52,165 nucleotides of DNA from Gemmatimonadota bacterium (GTDB lineage: Bacteria > 4572-55 > J002): NCBI GenBank assembly GCA_003697105.1, contig RFFQ01000005.1, forward strand, positions 1-52,165. Direction: 5' to 3'. This document shows, piece after piece, positions 20,186-52,165 of the stretch. A model generated the notes under the pieces. That model searched no databases, had not been told where the DNA came from, and was given only the letters and a program-made list of their open reading frames with translations. A program made the position numbers and the translations under genes. The stretch's first letter is position 1; every line of letters begins with the position of its first letter.

Positions 20186-22030
20186 ATGCCAGATCACACG
20201 GCTCAACTCCGGGCAACCATTGCCAAAACCCCATTGGAGCACCAAGCTCCCCTCCTTGCCGATCTAGCGATGAAGCTACGATTATCGGATCCCCAGCAGG
20301 CGTTAATCACGGCAAAAAAAGCATTACAGTTAGCCAAGCAACACTGCCAACCCGAAATAATAGCCAAATGTCATAACGTGCTGGGTGCGATCTACCATGC
20401 ATTCGGGCAATACCAAACAGCAACAAGTCATTTTGAACAAACCCTTACATTTTATCGCCACACCTCCGACGATTGGGAAGGCTTAAGTGCGGTACTCAAT
20501 AATTTGGGTGTCACCTGCTACGTGCAAGGGCAATACGATACCGCCTTGAAGTACTATTTAGATTCCCTGAAACTCCGCGAACGTCTCGGAAATAAAGCAC
20601 AAATTGCCGGCTCTTATGGAAATATCGCCGCCGTCTATTTCGATATGGAAAATTACCAAAAAGCGTTGGAATTTTATCTGAAAGAAACGGAGATCAAAGA
20701 AGAAATCGGGGATCAGGAGCATTTAGGCAATGCTTACATCGGGCTAGGAGTGGTGTACGAAGCCTTGCAAGAATACGAAAAATCTCTGGAATATTATCAC
20801 AAAGCGATTCACATTCAGGAACAATTTGAAGACCGCAAAGGGCTTTCCATCAGTTACGGCAATATCGGTTTTGTATATAGCAGCTTGCACCAAGCCGAAC
20901 AGGCACTGAAGTATTATTTCAAGGCACTTGCTATCAAAGAGGACTTAAATGATGCCAGCGGACTCACCAGCGTCTATCTAAATATAGCAGATATGTATCT
21001 CCAACAACATCAGTATGATACCGCCGAAAATTATTTGGAAAAAGCCCTAACTACCGCCCAAAGCACCGGCGCAAAATTACATGAAATGGATTGTTATCAC
21101 ACGTTTTCCGAACTATATGAAGCCAAAGGGAATTACCGGCACGCTTTGCACTATTACAAGCAATATACCGCCGTAAAAGAAGCCCTGTTCAACCGTGAAA
21201 AAGCCCGCCAAATTGCCGAAATTCAAACCCAATACGAAACCGAAAAAAAGGAAAAAGAAGCCGAAATTTATCGTCTGAAAAATGTCGAACTGGTCAAAAT
21301 GGTCGAAAAACTAGAAACTCTTCATCAAGAGAAAAATGAGTTTTTAGGGCTGGTGTCACATGACCTTAAAAACCCATTGACCTACATCCGGGGTACGACG
21401 GATTTGGTCCTTGAATACGGTGCCAAAAACTACAGCAAAACCGAATTGATCGAACTGTTCCCCTCGATCCGAGAAAACTGCGACCGGATGTTAAAAATGA
21501 TAAGAAACTTACTGGATATAAATCGATTGGAATCAAACCACACCCAATTTACATGGATGGCATTCGATCTGAATCATGTAGTGGAACAGGTGGTTGAGCA
21601 ACACCAGCTCCCAGCAACGGAAAAAAATATCTCTATCCATCTGGAAATACCCTCCCAGCCAGCAGAAATATACGCCGATGCGGACGCCGTTAAACAGATT
21701 TTAGAAAATCTGCTCTCCAATGCCCTCAAATATTCTTACCCGCATTCACCGGTGACGGTTCGGGTCATTCCGCAGGAACAGACCGTGCGCGTAGAGGTGC
21801 GCGATCAAGGACAGGGCTTATCCAAAACAGACTTAGCGCAGGTATTCAATAAATTTACCAAGCTCAGTGCCCAACCAACCGCCGGAGAAGAATCAACCGG
21901 TTTAGGATTATCCATTGTGAAAAAATTAACCGAATTGATGCAAGGTGACGTTAAGGTGGAAAGCGCCGGTAAAGGTCACGGTGCGACATTCACCGTGACC
22001 TTCCCCACAGCTCCGAAAAATGCAGATTAA
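20186..22030 (+). CDS. Soluble TPR sensor histidine kinase (copy 1)
   Basis: 614 residues with no signal peptide or membrane helix. About residues 25-335 are tetratricopeptide repeats of the 40-residue kind, with regular GNIAAVYFDMENYQKALEFY-like units. A charged coiled-coil linker contains EAEIYRLKNVEL, then the kinase core: His392 in VSHDLKNPL, N-box ILENLLSNALKYS, G1 RDQGQGLS and G2 TGLGLSIV. It should autophosphorylate at His392 in response to something bound by the repeats. It is convergent with a second copy, and no response regulator is encoded nearby. The linker motif is shared with the two other copies, showing recent common origin. Confidence 0.92.
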   Translation: MPDHTAQLRATIAKTPLEHQAPLLADLAMKLRLSDPQQALITAKKALQLAKQHCQPEIIAKCHNVLGAIYHAFGQYQTATSHFEQTLTFYRHTSDDWEGLSAVLNNLGVTCYVQGQYDTALKYYLDSLKLRERLGNKAQIAGSYGNIAAVYFDMENYQKALEFYLKETEIKEEIGDQEHLGNAYIGLGVVYEALQEYEKSLEYYHKAIHIQEQFEDRKGLSISYGNIGFVYSSLHQAEQALKYYFKALAIKEDLNDASGLTSVYLNIADMYLQQHQYDTAENYLEKALTTAQSTGAKLHEMDCYHTFSELYEAKGNYRHALHYYKQYTAVKEALFNREKARQIAEIQTQYETEKKEKEAEIYRLKNVELVKMVEKLETLHQEKNEFLGLVSHDLKNPLTYIRGTTDLVLEYGAKNYSKTELIELFPSIRENCDRMLKMIRNLLDINRLESNHTQFTWMAFDLNHVVEQVVEQHQLPATEKNISIHLEIPSQPAEIYADADAVKQILENLLSNALKYSYPHSPVTVRVIPQEQTVRVEVRDQGQGLSKTDLAQVFNKFTKLSAQPTAGEESTGLGLSIVKKLTELMQGDVKVESAGKGHGATFTVTFPTAPKNAD

Positions 22031-22099
22031 CATCAGCCGTAAACCGGTGTTATCATTGGGATGGATGAAATGGTAAGCCTTTTGAAGGGCGGCGAGGTG

Positions 22100-23896
22100 T
22101 TATTTCACGTCCCCGCCGGCAGGTAATTCCACCGAGAAGATACTACCGTGCCCGGCTCCCGGACTTTCGGCATCCACATTGCCGTGCATCGCTTCCACCA
22201 GCTTTTTGACGATGGAAAGTCCTAAACCAGTGGAATGTTCCCCACCGGTAGGCATCACTTTCAGGCGGGAAAAGCGTTTAAACAATTTATTCCGGTCTTC
22301 AGGGGAAAAGCCGGGACCCTCATCTTGTACTTCCAACCGTATCCGGTTGTTTACCCGCTTCAACCGGACGCGCACCGTCGTTTCTGGGGGTGAATACTTG
22401 ATGGCATTGGAAATCAAATTATCAACCACTTGGACAATGGCGTCCTCATCTGCGATCACCCAACAGGCGGTATCGGGCACATCCAATTCAAGGGCAATCT
22501 GTTTGGCGGCAGCCGCCGGCAGATATTCCTCGACATGTTTCACCGTCACGGGCAGCCAATCGACTAAGTTTAAGGAAAGATTGAGCTTACCGGATTCTAG
22601 GGCGTTCAAATCCAGTAAATTGCGGATGAGAGTGAACATGCGTGCCGCACCGTTTTCAATATAGCCCATAAATTCGATCAATTCCTCGCGGGAAAGACGG
22701 TCGTATTGCAAGCGGATAAAATGGGCAGTACTGCTGATAGAGGACAACGGATTTTTGAGGTCGTGCGCGGCGATGCCCAAAAATTCATCTTTTTCTTGTA
22801 ATAACGCAGCCAATTCGATGTTTTTCAGGCGATAAATTTCGGCTTCTTTGCGGGCAGTTTCTACTTGATGCAATAACTGCAAATTTTTCAACTGGTTATC
22901 CGTTTCTTCTCGATGTAGCAGTTGTTCCAAGTGCCGGCATTGTTTCAGGTGAGTTAAGGCATTTTGATAATCACCGGTCGCCTCATAAATTTGGGCAAAT
23001 AGATGATGGATACGGTGTTGTTGGGATTTTGCGCCGATTTCCACCGCTATATCGGATGCTTCCTGCAGAGAAGCCATCGCGGAGGCCATCTCTCCCTGTT
23101 CAAAATAGAAATCTGCCAACGAAATCAAAGTTTGGGTGATACCCAGCCGGTCATGGCGGGGGCGTCGTAAAGCTAAACTCTGCTGGAAATATGCCAGCGC
23201 TTGCGCGGATTGCCCCTGCACCGCCAGCGCAATTGCCAGATTGGTCATTGAATTCGCCTCACCCAACGGATTCCCCAGTTGCCGGTGCAACTCAAGACTT
23301 TCGTGGTGATACCGCAATGCGGTTTCCGGCTGACCGAGTTCATCATAAGCATTGGCGAGATTGCTGAGAGTGATCGCGATTTCCATAGGCGCATCCAATT
23401 GGCGGAATAAGGCTAAACTTTGCTCCAGATACGCCACTGCCCGATCATATTGCATCATATCATGGTGCAAAATACCCAGATGATTGAGTGCCGCCGCCGT
23501 TCCTTTTTCATCACCACATTGGCGTGATAATGCCAACGCCTGTTGGAACAGATCAAACACCGGTGCATAATCCCCCAAATGGTGATAAATCACCCCGATA
23601 ACATTATAAATTTTGGCTTGTTGTGCCGTCTCGTCATGCTGTTTGGCAAGGTCAAGTGCCTGTTCTAGAGTTTTCAGCGCTTCGGGATACGAGCCAGACT
23701 GGAGCAATGCGACGCCGGCGTGATGCAGGCTTTCTGCATGGCGAAATGAATCACCGTGAGATTCGGCTAATGCGGCGGCTTGGCGGGCATAATCAAGAGC
23801 TTTCAGAGGGTCCGATTGGCGAAGGTCCCAAGCGCGTGCATTAAGATGATCAATTTGATCGGGAATCGGAAAAGGAGAATTTGAATGCGAGGTCAT
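22100..23896 (-). CDS. Soluble TPR sensor histidine kinase (copy 2)
   Basis: 598 residues, no membrane segment. The N-terminal 320 or so are tetratricopeptide repeats, richer in Ala and Gln than in the other copies. The linker carries EAEIYRLKNIEL, then His378 in AAHDLKNPLSS, N-box VVDNLISNAIKYS, G1 QDEGPGFS and G2 STGLGLSIV. The H-box has Ala where the other two have Ser before His, and the G1 box differs (DEGPGF), so this copy is the most diverged. It starts four bases after the stop of the STAS gene, so the pair are co-transcribed with copy 3 at the head. Confidence 0.92.
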   Translation of the reverse strand: MTSHSNSPFPIPDQIDHLNARAWDLRQSDPLKALDYARQAAALAESHGDSFRHAESLHHAGVALLQSGSYPEALKTLEQALDLAKQHDETAQQAKIYNVIGVIYHHLGDYAPVFDLFQQALALSRQCGDEKGTAAALNHLGILHHDMMQYDRAVAYLEQSLALFRQLDAPMEIAITLSNLANAYDELGQPETALRYHHESLELHRQLGNPLGEANSMTNLAIALAVQGQSAQALAYFQQSLALRRPRHDRLGITQTLISLADFYFEQGEMASAMASLQEASDIAVEIGAKSQQHRIHHLFAQIYEATGDYQNALTHLKQCRHLEQLLHREETDNQLKNLQLLHQVETARKEAEIYRLKNIELAALLQEKDEFLGIAAHDLKNPLSSISSTAHFIRLQYDRLSREELIEFMGYIENGAARMFTLIRNLLDLNALESGKLNLSLNLVDWLPVTVKHVEEYLPAAAAKQIALELDVPDTACWVIADEDAIVQVVDNLISNAIKYSPPETTVRVRLKRVNNRIRLEVQDEGPGFSPEDRNKLFKRFSRLKVMPTGGEHSTGLGLSIVKKLVEAMHGNVDAESPGAGHGSIFSVELPAGGDVK

Positions 23897-23900
23897 TGAT

Positions 23901-24401
23901 CTAAGCGGGGGCGTTCAATTCACGTTCTAATAGGTTGATCACACTCTTAAATTTTAACTCATTTTCCGGTTTCAGGGGAAGCAACAACCGGTGCGCCTCT
24001 AAAATGCGTTGGGCGCGAGTGCGCGGGTCTTCATCATCCGTCCATTTGGCGGCTTGAAATTCATCAAACTGTTGGGGAAATTCCTGTACTAATACAAAAA
24101 GCTTGTCCACACCGAGATTTTCTAAGGTAAAATTGACATCCTGATGGGTGGAAAAGATAATCGAGGGTTCCAGATTGTTTTTTCGTGACCAAACCCCAAT
24201 CTTGACCAACAAACCCAGATTCGTACTATCAATGTAGATCGTTTCCGTCAGATCGATTACAAATTGATGTACATCTGGATTTTCCAATGCCAGATTGATA
24301 ACAAATTCCAAGTCACGGCTAATAGTGTACTTAATCTCCCCCCGTAATTTGATGATACATTGTGAATTTTGAAACGCATATAAAATATGATCGTCCGGCA
24401 T
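23901..24401 (-). CDS. STAS-domain protein (anti-sigma-factor-antagonist-like)
   Basis: 166 residues. About residues 5-115 have the STAS alternating strand-helix pattern, with VIDLTETIYIDSTNLGLLVK near the centre. Ser59 in the D-S-T-N-L-G turn is at the site that serine kinases of partner-switch systems phosphorylate. A charged helical tail of about 50 residues follows (DEDPRTRAQRILEAHRLLL). An AAAGGATGG site precedes the ATG. It lies between two TPR kinase genes on the same strand, with gaps of 30 and 4 bp, so it is probably a signalling partner. The kinases are of the histidine type, not the SpoIIAB/RsbW type, so how they would act on it is unclear. Confidence 0.85.
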   Translation of the reverse strand: MPDDHILYAFQNSQCIIKLRGEIKYTISRDLEFVINLALENPDVHQFVIDLTETIYIDSTNLGLLVKIGVWSRKNNLEPSIIFSTHQDVNFTLENLGVDKLFVLVQEFPQQFDEFQAAKWTDDEDPRTRAQRILEAHRLLLPLKPENELKFKSVINLLERELNAPA

Positions 24402-24431
24402 AACACCATCCTTTAGTGAATAGGTAAATAT

Positions 24432-26153
24432 CTATGATGAAACAGCTTTGGGTAAGTCAAAACCGAAGGTCGCCCCTTTCTCGGGTCCCTCGGATTCCAC
24501 CCAGACCGTACCGTTCATTTCATCCACGAGACGTTTGACGATAGAAAGTCCTAGCCCGGAGGAATGCTCTCCGTCGGTGGGTTGGGCACTCAACCGGGTA
24601 TATTTGGTAAAGACCTGCTGAAGATCGGCTTCCGAAAGTCCTTGCCCTTGATCCCGAACGGTACACCGAATATAGTCATCGCGGTCAAGGAGTTCAATAC
24701 AAACTCTTGTACCCCCGTACGAATATTTTATCGCGTTGGAAATCAAATTATCCAGCACTTGGTCTACCGCACTTTTATCGGCATAAGCATAGAGGGTGTG
24801 CACTGGAGATTCAAATTCCAGCATAATTTTCTTGCTATCCGCCGCCGCATTATAGTTTGAGAGCACTTCTAATACCACCAGTTGCATATTTACCGGCTCC
24901 AACGTAAACTGGACATCACCGTTTTCCAATCGATTGACATCCAGCAGGTTGGTCACCAAGTTTAACATGCGGTTGGCGGTGCGGCGGATTCGCGGAAAAT
25001 AAGCAAGCAGGTCTTCTTTGCTAAATGTATTTACGCTATAACTGGTCACTAAATCTGAGATGCCAATCAAATAACTGAGGGGATTTTTAAGATCATGGGA
25101 GACAATCTCTAAAAAATCGTTTTTTTCTGCATTCAACCGGCGAAGGCGCTCCAACGCAGAAGCAAGCTCAACATTTTTCAGGCGATAAATCTCCGCTTCT
25201 CGCTCCCGTTTTTCGGTCTTATACTGGAGTTCAATGCTAGTGATATGGCGGTTTTTTTCCAGATTAAATAACTCTTGTTCCAATGCCAACAGATGTTTGT
25301 GGTACTCCAACGCTTCTCGATAATTTTCGAGGGTCTCTTGCAACAAAAATAAGTTGTTATAGGCGATCCGTTCCCAATTTTTGGCGCCGGTTTTTTTGGC
25401 AAGGTCTAATCCCCAGTGTAGGTATTCCAACGCCTGTTCAAATTTACCCTGTATCCGGCAACCCGAACCGAGATTGATATAGCACATGGCAATACCCTGC
25501 TGGTTACCCTGCTGTTGCCAAATTTCCAATGCTTTTAACTGGTAATCTAGCCCGACATCATAATCTCCCTTCAGCGCATATAAGGCCCCAATGTTATTGA
25601 ACAGGGTTGCTAATGACTCCGCCGAATCCAGATGTTCCTGCAGGTTTAATTCTTTTTGGAAGTACTCCAGAGCCCGGTCATAATCCCCTAAACTTTGGTA
25701 CGTCACCCCTAGATTGCGATAAATGTGGGGTAAAAGGCGAGGGTCGTCCAACTTCATCTGTATTTGAAGTGCTTTTTCTAAAAATTCTAATGAGGTATGG
25801 TAATCTTGTTGCATTTGATACGCTTTACCTAGATTCACATACGCGGAAACCATTCCTTGAAGGTTGTTATGTTTCTCATCTAGGCTGAGCGACTTCAAGA
25901 AGAATTCAATCGCCCGGTCATTGGCAAATTGACCGGCGTAGCCAATCCCGATCAAACGTAATGCCATGGCTTCTGGGATCACCAACTGGAGGTTCTGCGC
26001 TAATGTTAGGGCTTCCAAGCCGATTTTCAGTGCTCGCTCCGGTTGGGTTGGGTACACCAGTTGGCCAAGTTCGAGCAGTAGATTTAGTCTCTCTTCCCCC
26101 TCAGCATGTGGCAGCACTTCTTCCAACTGATGAATTTTCGATGAGAGGTTCAT
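24432..26153 (-). CDS. Soluble TPR sensor histidine kinase (copy 3)
   Basis: 573 residues with no membrane helix. Tetratricopeptide repeats fill about residues 15-300 (for example YRNLGVTYQSLGDYDRALEY), the linker has EAEIYRLKNVEL, and the kinase core has His353 in VSHDLKNPLSY, N-box VLDNLISNAIKYS, G1 RDQGQGLS and G2 SSGLGLSIV. The kinase core is closest to copy 1 (shared TKYTRLSAQPTDGEHS-like stretch), although copy 1 is on the opposite strand. A GAGGT site lies four bases before the ATG. It heads a minus-strand set of copy 3, STAS and copy 2. Confidence 0.92.
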   Translation of the reverse strand: MNLSSKIHQLEEVLPHAEGEERLNLLLELGQLVYPTQPERALKIGLEALTLAQNLQLVIPEAMALRLIGIGYAGQFANDRAIEFFLKSLSLDEKHNNLQGMVSAYVNLGKAYQMQQDYHTSLEFLEKALQIQMKLDDPRLLPHIYRNLGVTYQSLGDYDRALEYFQKELNLQEHLDSAESLATLFNNIGALYALKGDYDVGLDYQLKALEIWQQQGNQQGIAMCYINLGSGCRIQGKFEQALEYLHWGLDLAKKTGAKNWERIAYNNLFLLQETLENYREALEYHKHLLALEQELFNLEKNRHITSIELQYKTEKREREAEIYRLKNVELASALERLRRLNAEKNDFLEIVSHDLKNPLSYLIGISDLVTSYSVNTFSKEDLLAYFPRIRRTANRMLNLVTNLLDVNRLENGDVQFTLEPVNMQLVVLEVLSNYNAAADSKKIMLEFESPVHTLYAYADKSAVDQVLDNLISNAIKYSYGGTRVCIELLDRDDYIRCTVRDQGQGLSEADLQQVFTKYTRLSAQPTDGEHSSGLGLSIVKRLVDEMNGTVWVESEGPEKGATFGFDLPKAVSS

Positions 26154-48637: not shown

Positions 48638-48685
48638 TATTCTTAAAATTCCATTTGATAGATTGCGCTGAATTTAATTCGCCAC

Positions 48686-48714
48686 ATTTTAGTCAATTTT
48701 TAAGGGTTTGTCAA
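48686..48714 (-). promoter_or_regulatory. Predicted promoter of the PilB-like gene and ispE-to-ssb operon
   Basis: On the minus strand, a perfect TTGACA, 17 bp, then TAAAAT (five of six). The strongest promoter match in the window; the leader would be about 40 bases. Confidence 0.7.
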
Positions 48715-48735
48715 AGGGTTTCTGGGCTAAAACTC

Positions 48736-48764
48736 TTGACAGCCACCTGAGAATGATATAGAGT
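48736..48764 (+). promoter_or_regulatory. Predicted promoter of the SucD-like gene
   Basis: TTGACA with TAGAGT at 17 bp, or TATAGA at 15 bp. Divergent from the PilB-like promoter, 22 bp away. Confidence 0.5.
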
Positions 48765-48840
48765 ACCAGACCATTAAGGCGATTTTCAGCGAAACACCGA
48801 ATCGGTTCTCATACATTTAACTTCAGGAGTAGGGCATTTT

Positions 48841-49740
48841 ATGGCAATTTTAATTGATGAATCCAAAACGGTTCTCGTGCAAGGAATTACTGGACGAGAA
48901 GGCATGACCCGTGCCAAGTTGATGATGAATTATGGGACAAATGTCGTTGCCGGCTGTACACCGGGCAAAGGCGGTCAAATAGTGCTCGACAAAATTCCGG
49001 TATATGATACCGTGCAAGAAGCTACCGAACATCACGGTAAAATTGACATCAGTGTGATTTTTGTACCGGCGCCCTTGGTCAAAAATGCGGCATTGGAGGC
49101 AATTTATGCCGGCATTCAGTTGGTGGTTATCGTTCCGGATCGGGTGCCAATATACGACGTACTGGAAATCAGCCGCACAGCGAAAAAGTTCGGAGCCAAC
49201 TTTGTCGGTCCCAACACGCTGGGTTTGCTCAGCCCGGGCAAAGGAGTGCTCGGCATGATGGGCGGTCGTGCGGAAAGTGCCCGCAAGTGGTTCAAAGCGG
49301 GCAACGTCGGTGTGACCTCACGGAGTGGTGGAATGACCAGTTCGATGGCGTATTACCTCAGCCAAAATGGTATCGGGCTATCCACCATAGTCCATGTGGG
49401 CGGGGATGCCGTGGTGGGAATGCCCCACCCCAAAATCGTCGAACAGTTTGAACACGACCCCCAAACCGAAGCAGTTGTGATGTTCGGGGAAATTGGCACG
49501 TCCCAAGAAGAAACCGTTGCCGACCTCATCGAACAAGGTAAATTCACAAAACCGTTGGTCGCTTACATTGGTGGTAAAGCCGCTAAAGAAGGCACCCGTT
49601 TTTCCCATGCTGGAGCCATTGTCGAAGGTAACCGCGGTACACACGCCGGAAAAGTCGCCCGGTTGCGCGAAGTCGGCGCGATTGTGGTAGATTCCTTCGC
49701 CGATATACCCGCTGCCACTAAATCTGTTTTGAGCAGATGA
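48841..49740 (+). CDS. CoA-ligase alpha subunit, SucD / ATP-citrate-lyase-like
   Basis: 299 residues of the succinyl-CoA synthetase alpha fold: CoA-binding VLVQGITGREGMTRAKLMM, GCTPGKGGQ, the loop GPNTLGLLSPG, SRSGGMTSS, GGDAVVGMP, FGEIGTSQEE, KPLVAYIGGKAA and the phosphohistidine motif FSHAGAI. Compared with ordinary SucD, the forms SRSGGM (not SRSGTL) and GKFTKPLVAY resemble ATP-citrate lyase and citryl-CoA synthetase small subunit. The gene next to it codes for a citryl-CoA-lyase-like protein, supporting a citrate-to-citryl-CoA role. A beta (ATP-grasp) subunit is needed and is not in this window. Confidence 0.85.
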   Translation: MAILIDESKTVLVQGITGREGMTRAKLMMNYGTNVVAGCTPGKGGQIVLDKIPVYDTVQEATEHHGKIDISVIFVPAPLVKNAALEAIYAGIQLVVIVPDRVPIYDVLEISRTAKKFGANFVGPNTLGLLSPGKGVLGMMGGRAESARKWFKAGNVGVTSRSGGMTSSMAYYLSQNGIGLSTIVHVGGDAVVGMPHPKIVEQFEHDPQTEAVVMFGEIGTSQEETVADLIEQGKFTKPLVAYIGGKAAKEGTRFSHAGAIVEGNRGTHAGKVARLREVGAIVVDSFADIPAATKSVLSR

Positions 49741-49792
49741 GTTTTGCGAGTTGGGGAGTTTGATGAGTTTTACGAGTTGGGGAGTTGGGGAG
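49739..49792 (+). repeat. Second, shorter GAGTT array
   Basis: Six or more units of the same words as in the array after gdhA, beginning inside the stop codon of the SucD-like gene and running 54 bp. A further short run resembling TAACTG words follows at about 49800-49825. Confidence 0.8.
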
Positions 49793-49843
49793 GTGCTCAC
49801 TGGTAACTGTAAACTACTAACTGCATTAAAATGAGGTCTTAAA

Positions 49844-50617
49844 ATGGTAGATACATGGAAAACAGAAATTACAAATATTAAACCTAATAAAGTGATGCTA
49901 CGTGGCTATCCCATCGACCAGTTGATGGGCAACATCTCCTACGCACAAGGCGTTTATCTGGCATTAAAAGGTGAATTACCCACCGAAAATGTGGGTAAAC
50001 TAATAGACGCAATACTCGTATCCTCCATCGATCATGGGGTGACGCCACCCTCGGCAATGGCAGCCATGATCGCCGCCTCCACCGGAGCGGCACTGAACAG
50101 CGCCCTTGCCGCCGGAATTTTATCCATTAACCGCTTTCACGGCGGCGCAATTGAAGATTGTATGCGGGCAATTCTGGAAGTCAAAGCCTACAAAGAGGAA
50201 CAGCAGTGTGATGATGCCACTGCCGCTACGGCAATCGTAGCTAATTATCGCGCTAAAAAAGTACGGATTGCCGGCTTCGGACATCGAATTCATACCGAAG
50301 ACCCACGCACGATTAAACTATTTCGATTGGCAGACGAATTAAACCTTGCGGGAGAATTTGTGGAATTGGGAAAGGCGCTGGAAGCCGCGATTAGTGAATC
50401 TCTGGGCAAAAAATTACCGATGAACGTAGATGGCGCTATCGCCGCCCTGCTCTGTGAATTGGATTTTGAACCTGATCTGGCAAACGCCTTCTTTATCATG
50501 GCACGGGTGCCCGGCTTAGTGGCGCACATCCGTGAAGAACAGACCCGGCAAAAACCGATGCGGCGTATCGACCCCAATAATTGGGAGTACGATGGTGCGG
50601 AAGAGCGTTTTTTGTAA
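49844..50617 (+). CDS. Citryl-CoA-lyase-like (short citrate synthase family)
   Basis: 257 residues, much shorter than citrate synthase (about 420) and matching the size of citryl-CoA lyase from Hydrogenobacter. The citrate synthase active-site residues are kept: His in SINRFHGGAIEDC, His in IAGFGHRIHTEDPRT, Asp in LPMNVDGAIA, plus Arg in AHIREEQTRQKPMRRI. It probably splits citryl-CoA to acetyl-CoA and oxaloacetate, or runs the reverse. The upstream SucD-like gene would make the thioester. A GAGGT site lies seven bases before the ATG. Citrate versus a related acid as substrate is not proven. Confidence 0.82.
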   Translation: MVDTWKTEITNIKPNKVMLRGYPIDQLMGNISYAQGVYLALKGELPTENVGKLIDAILVSSIDHGVTPPSAMAAMIAASTGAALNSALAAGILSINRFHGGAIEDCMRAILEVKAYKEEQQCDDATAATAIVANYRAKKVRIAGFGHRIHTEDPRTIKLFRLADELNLAGEFVELGKALEAAISESLGKKLPMNVDGAIAALLCELDFEPDLANAFFIMARVPGLVAHIREEQTRQKPMRRIDPNNWEYDGAEERFL

Positions 50618-51745: not shown

Positions 51746-52165
51746 TTCAAAGGTCAGATCGCGCTGCCGGGTCTGGATGTCTGGATTTTTGTGGTGGTCG
51801 ATGATGCCACCCGCTTCTGCGGATACCCAAACGGTCATCCGGAAAATGAACGACCTGTTCGTTCAATTCGGACTCCCCGAGCAGGTCTGCACCGATAACG
51901 GCAAAGCCTTTACCTCGGTTTGGGAAGGCGGCACTCATCAATTTGAGACCTTTTTGAATGAGCGTCACATTGAACACGATCTGATTACACCGTATTATCC
52001 TGAAAGCAACGGCAAAGTGGAAGCCTTGATCAAAATCATTAACCGCGAGTGCTTACGCTGGTATTCGATGACGCATCACAAAGAGCAATTTCAATCGATC
52101 TCGGAATTGCAAGAGGCGTTGGATACCTTTGTCGAGTACTATAATTGGTATCGGGGACACCGCGC
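51746..52165 (+). mobile_element. Decayed DDE integrase-core transposase (IS481/IS3-like), open at the right edge
   Basis: Starting with VDFKGQIALPG and DVWIFVVVDDATRF (first Asp), the reading frame shifts by +1 near 51818. It continues as ADTQTVIRKMNDLFVQFGLP, VCTDNGKAFTS (second Asp), YYPESNGKVEALIK (Glu) and FVEYYNWYRGHR, the rve-domain order of IS481- and IS3-family transposases. A few residues after DDATRF are missing. So this is a non-functional copy, at least at its 5' half; it runs beyond the window and no terminal inverted repeat can be seen. Confidence 0.75.

Follow-up and report, generated by a model that had tools for sequence, protein, structure and literature searches.

A CoA-ligase alpha subunit and a citryl-CoA-lyase-family protein from a conserved three-part ligase–lyase system with a predicted iron-sulphur tail

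The window, i.e., the whole stretch of 52,165 nucleotides that was analysed, carries towards its end two genes on the same strand, the first encoding the alpha subunit of a CoA ligase and the second a small protein of the citrate synthase fold. Both had been delimited in a first-pass annotation made from the sequence alone, and their coordinates and lengths proved exact. The locus is composed of the following elements:

48638–48840, + strand: divergent intergenic region 5′ of the alpha gene
48841–49740, + strand: SucD/CcsB-like CoA-ligase alpha subunit, 299 aa, ATG start; assigned by Pfam, NCBIfam, tree and motifs
49741–49843, + strand: gap of 103 bp between the alpha and lyase genes, with a GAGTT-type short tandem repeat
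49844–50617, + strand: protein of the citryl-CoA lyase family with a citrate synthase fold, 257 aa, ATG start; catalytic residues intact

The ATG of the alpha gene is preceded by AGGAG, and the divergent region contains TTGACA-17-TAGAGT at 48736–48764, which is promoter-like only and not more frequent than chance would give. The gap between the two genes measures 103 bp in the window and 18–49 bp in three relatives, and its repeat spans 49736–49786. Short tandem repeats of the GAGTT/AACTC type, with units of 8, 17, and 25 bp, occupy intergenic gaps of the window genome (49736–49786, 13987–14260, L050:3409–3633, and L050:12105–12174); the alpha–lyase gap and the gap following the beta gene on contig C88, described below, are among these sites. 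Such repeats may be marks of insertions or rearrangements. Downstream of the pair, a fragment with an integrase core domain (rve) at 51777–52163 runs off the contig end and is probably a mobile element. Elsewhere in the window, the region 20186–26153 holds three long TPR proteins in a row (20186–22030, + strand; 22100–23896, − strand; 24432–26153, − strand) with C-termini resembling sensor histidine kinases, and among them an anti-sigma-antagonist-like gene is situated at 23901–24401; these domains were read by eye.

According to Pfam, the alpha subunit contains the CoA_binding, Ligase_CoA, and Succ_CoA_lig domains, all far over the cut-off. It is approximately 40–43% identical to SucD, and its best PDB matches by raw score were SucD, followed by CcsB and ATP-citrate lyase (ACL). 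The NCBIfam SucD profile, however, gave a score of 290, below its cut-off of 353. The motif SRSGG is located at residue 160, and RFSHAGA, which bears the phospho-histidine, lies near residue 256; both were present in all 13 alpha subunits of the system described here. SRSGG agrees with the S/T-K/R-SGG found in CcsB and two ACLs and is unlike the SRSGT of SucD and the GRSGT of the malate-thiokinase alpha subunit. The first-pass annotation had placed SRSGGM and FSHAGAI closer to ATP-citrate lyase and citryl-CoA synthetase than to SucD, a claim that holds for SRSGG and for the phenylalanine, which is common to CcsB and ACL, but not for the serine, which is peculiar to the 13-member clade. In the phylogenetic tree, the system alphas formed one clade of 13 rows (support 100/100) that was neither CcsB nor SucD and lay outside 25 rows comprising the sampled SucD proteins, the malate-thiokinase alpha, and a WOR-3/fused group. 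The window alpha thus fell outside the SucD/MtkB clade, a placement inside which had been named as evidence against the earlier assignment. Besides the window alpha, two further Ligase_CoA proteins were identified in the window genome, a SucC and a SucD of the ordinary kind on contigs C83 and C60, which makes three in all.

The second gene encodes a protein with a Citrate_synt domain far over the Pfam cut-off, in which the catalytic His, His, and Asp and the oxaloacetate-binding Arg are all present, as the earlier reading of a 257-residue citrate-synthase-family protein had it. The protein was recognised by the citryl-CoA lyase subfamily model NF004869 (270 bits; cut-off 212) and by NF004866 (251; cut-off 245), while it remained under the cut-offs of the equivalog models (NF004864: 235; cut-off 261); its score was far above that of any 2-methylcitrate synthase model. 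The best solved match was Hydrogenobacter Ccl, with 201 bits, followed by citrate synthase, with 75. The motifs DHG, HGGA, GHR, DPR, and NVDG and the R of ARVPG are all kept, as in Ccl. The position two residues N-terminal to the catalytic His, which is S or D in Ccl, is basic in 11 of the 12 system lyases. In the tree, the lyases were situated on the Ccl side of a branch (100/99) separating them from seven citrate synthases, as a clade neighbouring Ccl and not inside it, whose inner order was weakly supported. The lyase thus fell outside the sampled citrate synthases, and the 2-methylcitrate synthase identity that would have spoken against it was not borne out. A true ATP-citrate lyase was ruled out, as the lyase and alpha are two separate, unfused open reading frames and ACL was distant in the trees, where the ACL rows form long branches and their positions are not trustworthy.

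The absence of a beta subunit beside the pair had been pointed out previously, together with the proposal to look for a CcsA/SucC-like gene elsewhere in the genome. No beta gene adjoins the pair, and a second ATP-grasp beta subunit was indeed found on another contig, which rules out a pair lacking any beta:

G000:C88:40533–42077 (contig C88 of the window genome): beta subunit (SucC/CcsA-like ATP-grasp with a 2x[4Fe-4S] ferredoxin-like tail), 515 aa

The Pfam domain Ligase_CoA, seen in SucC, gave no match in this protein, which also scored below the SucC profile cut-off; the citrate-binding domain of ATP-citrate lyase matched weakly, with 26.5 bits, just under the cut-off of 26.8. The motifs GGGGS and GNPP are common to this beta and CcsA, where SucC has GAGL and GG(S/G). 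The acid-binding loop reads SGVASQEQ, compared with GGTANNTRID in CcsA and GGITRCD in SucC. With CcsA-like motifs and a loop of its own, the binding site partly resembles those of citrate-using enzymes and is partly distinct. In a tree built after removing the iron-sulphur tail, the betas formed one clade of 13 rows (100/100), and a branch with 99/98 support set CcsA, the iron-sulphur betas, and a lyase-linked group apart from SucC, the malate-thiokinase beta, and the WOR-3/fused pair. The iron-sulphur betas were located on the CcsA side as their own clade, not nested inside CcsA. The same contig also encodes a C-terminal sorting-type domain, which gives the impression of a member of the FCB group.

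The C-terminal tail of the beta subunit comprises approximately 90 aa with eight cysteines spaced as Cx2Cx4Cx3C and Cx2Cx2Cx3C, all of which are conserved in every one of 14 sequences but G304, which has lost those of the first motif. Although the cysteine spacing had suggested a FixX-type origin, a PDB search with the tail profile returned general dicluster ferredoxins instead, with the ferredoxin-like subunit of 2-oxoglutarate:acceptor oxidoreductase as second best. Neither the ligase nor the lyase reaction requires electrons. Judging from the sequence, the tail therefore probably has no catalytic part and ties the enzyme to redox state, most simply as a switch or as a docking site for ferredoxin-dependent 2-oxoacid oxidoreductases. 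No iron-sulphur-tailed beta was found in the plasmid collection searched.

The C88 beta and its close relatives (49–67% identity over the aligned stretch) were found in 13 of the 386 genomes searched. Genes for beta, alpha, and lyase are consecutive in nine of these (G035, G192, G159, G273, G331, G315, G181, G350, and G165), and a tenth, G387, has the same order with its beta cut by the contig end. In G035, for example, the three genes lie on one strand and their products share 55, 62, and 56% identity with the window-genome proteins. In the window genome, the alpha and lyase genes are on contig C101, the beta gene on C88, and genes for an HD-domain protein and a dehydrogenase on C7. Given the consecutive arrangement in nine genomes, the window set represents a conserved system of three genes in dispersed form. 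The earlier alternatives, a partner encoded far away or an acid other than citrate, can be answered for the first part by the candidate partner on C88, and the second may also hold.

Other genomes depart from this order to various degrees. G304 carries beta and alpha on one contig and lyase, HD-domain, and hydro-lyase genes on another. Only the beta, HD-domain, and dehydrogenase genes were found in the sister genome G001, where a loss of alpha and lyase at a contig edge was rejected, as no lyase is encoded in the 250 bases that precede its HD gene. G375 has beta and alpha; a separate lyase was not found there, and a fused SucD–citrate synthase protein is present. At L209:1305–4602 of that genome, a 355-aa SucC-like gene is followed by a gene for a 713-aa SucD-like/citrate-synthase-like fusion, both located between LeuCD and SucCD genes, and the two proteins group with the WOR-3 alpha and beta in the trees. 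To judge from these sequences, the fusion and the WOR-3 group are possibly a third ACL-like lineage. A single-sequence scan of public data gave only one close relative, from WOR-3, whose cluster is without an iron-sulphur tail and has the same HD-domain, hydro-lyase, and dehydrogenase set. SucD-like genes also adjoin Ccl-like lyases without iron-sulphur tails at L046 (G049:C11) and L047 (G041:C75), with an adjacent beta in G049; these SucD-like proteins, which carry the motifs SRSGGMTTE and RFGHA, form a clade of their own. The three-part ligase–lyase system is real and conserved, and its iron-sulphur-tailed design is common to several unrelated groups of mostly fragmentary genomes.

In the mechanism proposed here, the window alpha would pair with the beta encoded at C88:40533–42077, which contributes the ATP-grasp, a CcsA-like acid-binding domain, and the 2x[4Fe-4S] tail. 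Together they would use ATP and CoA, via the phospho-histidine of alpha, to convert a citrate-type tricarboxylic acid to its CoA thioester, which the separate lyase would cleave to acetyl-CoA and a 2-oxo acid, in the simplest case converting citryl-CoA to acetyl-CoA and oxaloacetate. The window pair would then make up two thirds of a three-subunit, two-step iron-sulphur variant of citryl-CoA synthetase/lyase carrying out ATP-spending citrate-type cleavage, the most likely of the functions considered and one to which we give an even chance. With a hydro-lyase and a dehydrogenase added, the set would become a reversible module interconverting a 2-oxo acid, CO2, and NAD(P)H with acetyl-CoA and a shorter 2-oxo acid, resembling the part of the reductive TCA cycle that involves citrate. 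Such a cycle is possible in the window genome, where the pyruvate/2-oxoacid oxidoreductase domain POR_N occurs in six places, oxidoreductase gene pairs among them, which allows it without proving it.

The genes that accompany the module bear on the identity of the acid. A small HD-domain protein is encoded after the lyase in G192, G159, G273, G331, G165, and G304, followed, varying by genome, by an aconitase/homoaconitase-family hydro-lyase and/or a decarboxylating dehydrogenase. The HD-domain protein accompanies the module in most genomes, WOR-3 included, and the first His of its motif is replaced by Ala (LADVGK) in three, the window genome among them. Its genes include:

L195:9382–9906 (G000:C7, window genome): HD-domain protein
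L113:6341–6874: HD-domain protein
L010:5335–5847: HD-domain protein

In G192, an MmgE/PrpD-family gene is situated after the module (L113:8330–9709); it is below the cut-off for 2-methylcitrate dehydratase and may point to chemistry involving 2-methylcitrate or aconitate.

A less probable reading takes homocitrate, or a different 2-substituted malate of greater length, as the acid, so that the proteins would act as homocitryl-CoA synthetase and homocitryl-CoA lyase on a route connecting 2-oxoadipate, homoisocitrate, homocitrate, and acetyl-CoA plus 2-oxoglutarate in either direction. The G159 hydro-lyase matches the homoaconitase model TIGR00139 with 763 bits (cut-off 530), and the same family is the only match of the G331 hydro-lyase fragment. 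In the module dehydrogenase, SPIV replaces the SLNV motif of isocitrate dehydrogenases, and its best NCBIfam match is homoisocitrate dehydrogenase, below the cut-off. Furthermore, contig C135 of the window genome encodes a separate, canonical citrate synthase and, after it, a genuine NADP isocitrate dehydrogenase. On the other hand, at the positions that contact oxaloacetate in citrate synthase the lyase has the same residues as Hydrogenobacter Ccl, the dehydrogenase is equally near to solved isocitrate and homoisocitrate dehydrogenases (231 and 230 bits), and no lysine genes were seen adjoining the modules. The hydro-lyases of G273, G165, and G304 are of the LeuCD type, aconitases or homoaconitases by sequence, from which their substrate is unreadable. 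Considering the homocitrate-leaning hydro-lyase and dehydrogenase together with the separate citrate synthase and isocitrate dehydrogenase, citrate stays evenly balanced and homocitrate a minority option. A fuller version, in which a homocitryl-CoA synthetase/lyase with a redox-responsive iron-sulphur tail would serve as a reversible, ATP-coupled second module beside the normal citrate synthase route, is somewhat less probable still.

Returning to citryl-CoA, the points against this preferred reading include the beta loop, which differs from that of CcsA, the SPIV of the dehydrogenase, the homoaconitase of two genomes (whole and over the cut-off in G159), and the separate citrate synthase and isocitrate dehydrogenase, as well as the missing separate lyase in G375, the presence in G001 of beta alone of the three subunits, and the cysteine loss in G304. 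The split citryl-CoA synthetase/lyase proposed in the first-pass annotation is borne out by trees and profiles as to its protein families, while citrate as its acid stays tentative, in view of the homocitrate-like hydro-lyase and dehydrogenase.

The module might also run in the synthetic direction, in which the lyase would condense acetyl-CoA with a 2-oxo acid, and the ligase would free the product acid and conserve ATP, i.e., as a reversible, ATP-yielding (homo)citrate synthase. SucCD-type ligases are reversible, and all steps leading onward to a 2-oxo acid are encoded in the module; however, a normal citrate synthase is already present in the window genome and direction is unreadable from sequence, and we regard this option as improbable. 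Finally, an ordinary succinyl-CoA synthetase or malate thiokinase alpha subunit lying by chance beside a lone lyase would fit the identity to SucD and the PDB ranking, but this is very unlikely, as the trees place alpha outside both (which rules out malate thiokinase), its SucD score and SRSGG motif disagree, the same beta and lyase are linked to it in nine or ten genomes, and the window genome has its own SucD and SucC.

Citrate cleavage is the diagnostic step for calling the reductive TCA cycle from genomes, and a third lineage of ligase and lyase, present in several groups that look uncultured, could escape notice or be mistaken for succinyl-CoA synthetase. A carbon-fixation survey used only ACL and Hydrogenobacter CCS/CCL as reference sequences (PMC9802188). 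For a class of Electryoneota, ccsAB and ccl were reported to be absent from the genome studied, and earlier reverse TCA cycle proposals for the phylum were cited (PMC10439189). The iron-sulphur-tailed beta appears undescribed so far: no description of a ferredoxin domain on such a ligase was found in the open-access papers searched, subscription papers being outside the search. The presence of the tail suggests that citrate-type cleavage is directly coupled to redox state. Should the acid be homocitrate, the reaction would proceed through a CoA ester, homocitryl-CoA, of which the open-access papers searched make no mention.

When compared to known systems, the linked hydro-lyase and dehydrogenase resemble homoaconitase (TIGR00139) and homoisocitrate dehydrogenase of the homocitrate pathway. 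In that pathway, homocitrate is made by an IPMS-type synthase, unlike the citrate-synthase-fold lyase and CoA ligase found here. SucCD and MtkAB share the ligase fold and the phospho-histidine, with approximately 40–43% identity in alpha, but the alpha and beta subunits of our system form separate clades and are below the SucD and SucC profile cut-offs. ATP-citrate lyase (AclAB/ACLY) has similar domain types, and its citrate-binding domain weakly matches the beta; in contrast, the window lyase and alpha are unfused, and both the alpha and lyase trees placed the sampled ACLs at a distance. Citryl-CoA synthetase and citryl-CoA lyase are established in Hydrogenobacter and its relatives. CcsAB and Ccl of Hydrogenobacter thermophilus (PDB 6hxq, 6hxp) are likewise three separate polypeptides with an equal division of labour. 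The C88 beta differs from CcsA in its C-terminal 2x[4Fe-4S] domain and citrate-binding loop, and the system alphas form a clade separate from CcsB; nevertheless, the window lyase is nearest to Ccl, the beta groups with CcsA and shares its GGGGS and GNPP, and the alpha has the same SGG.
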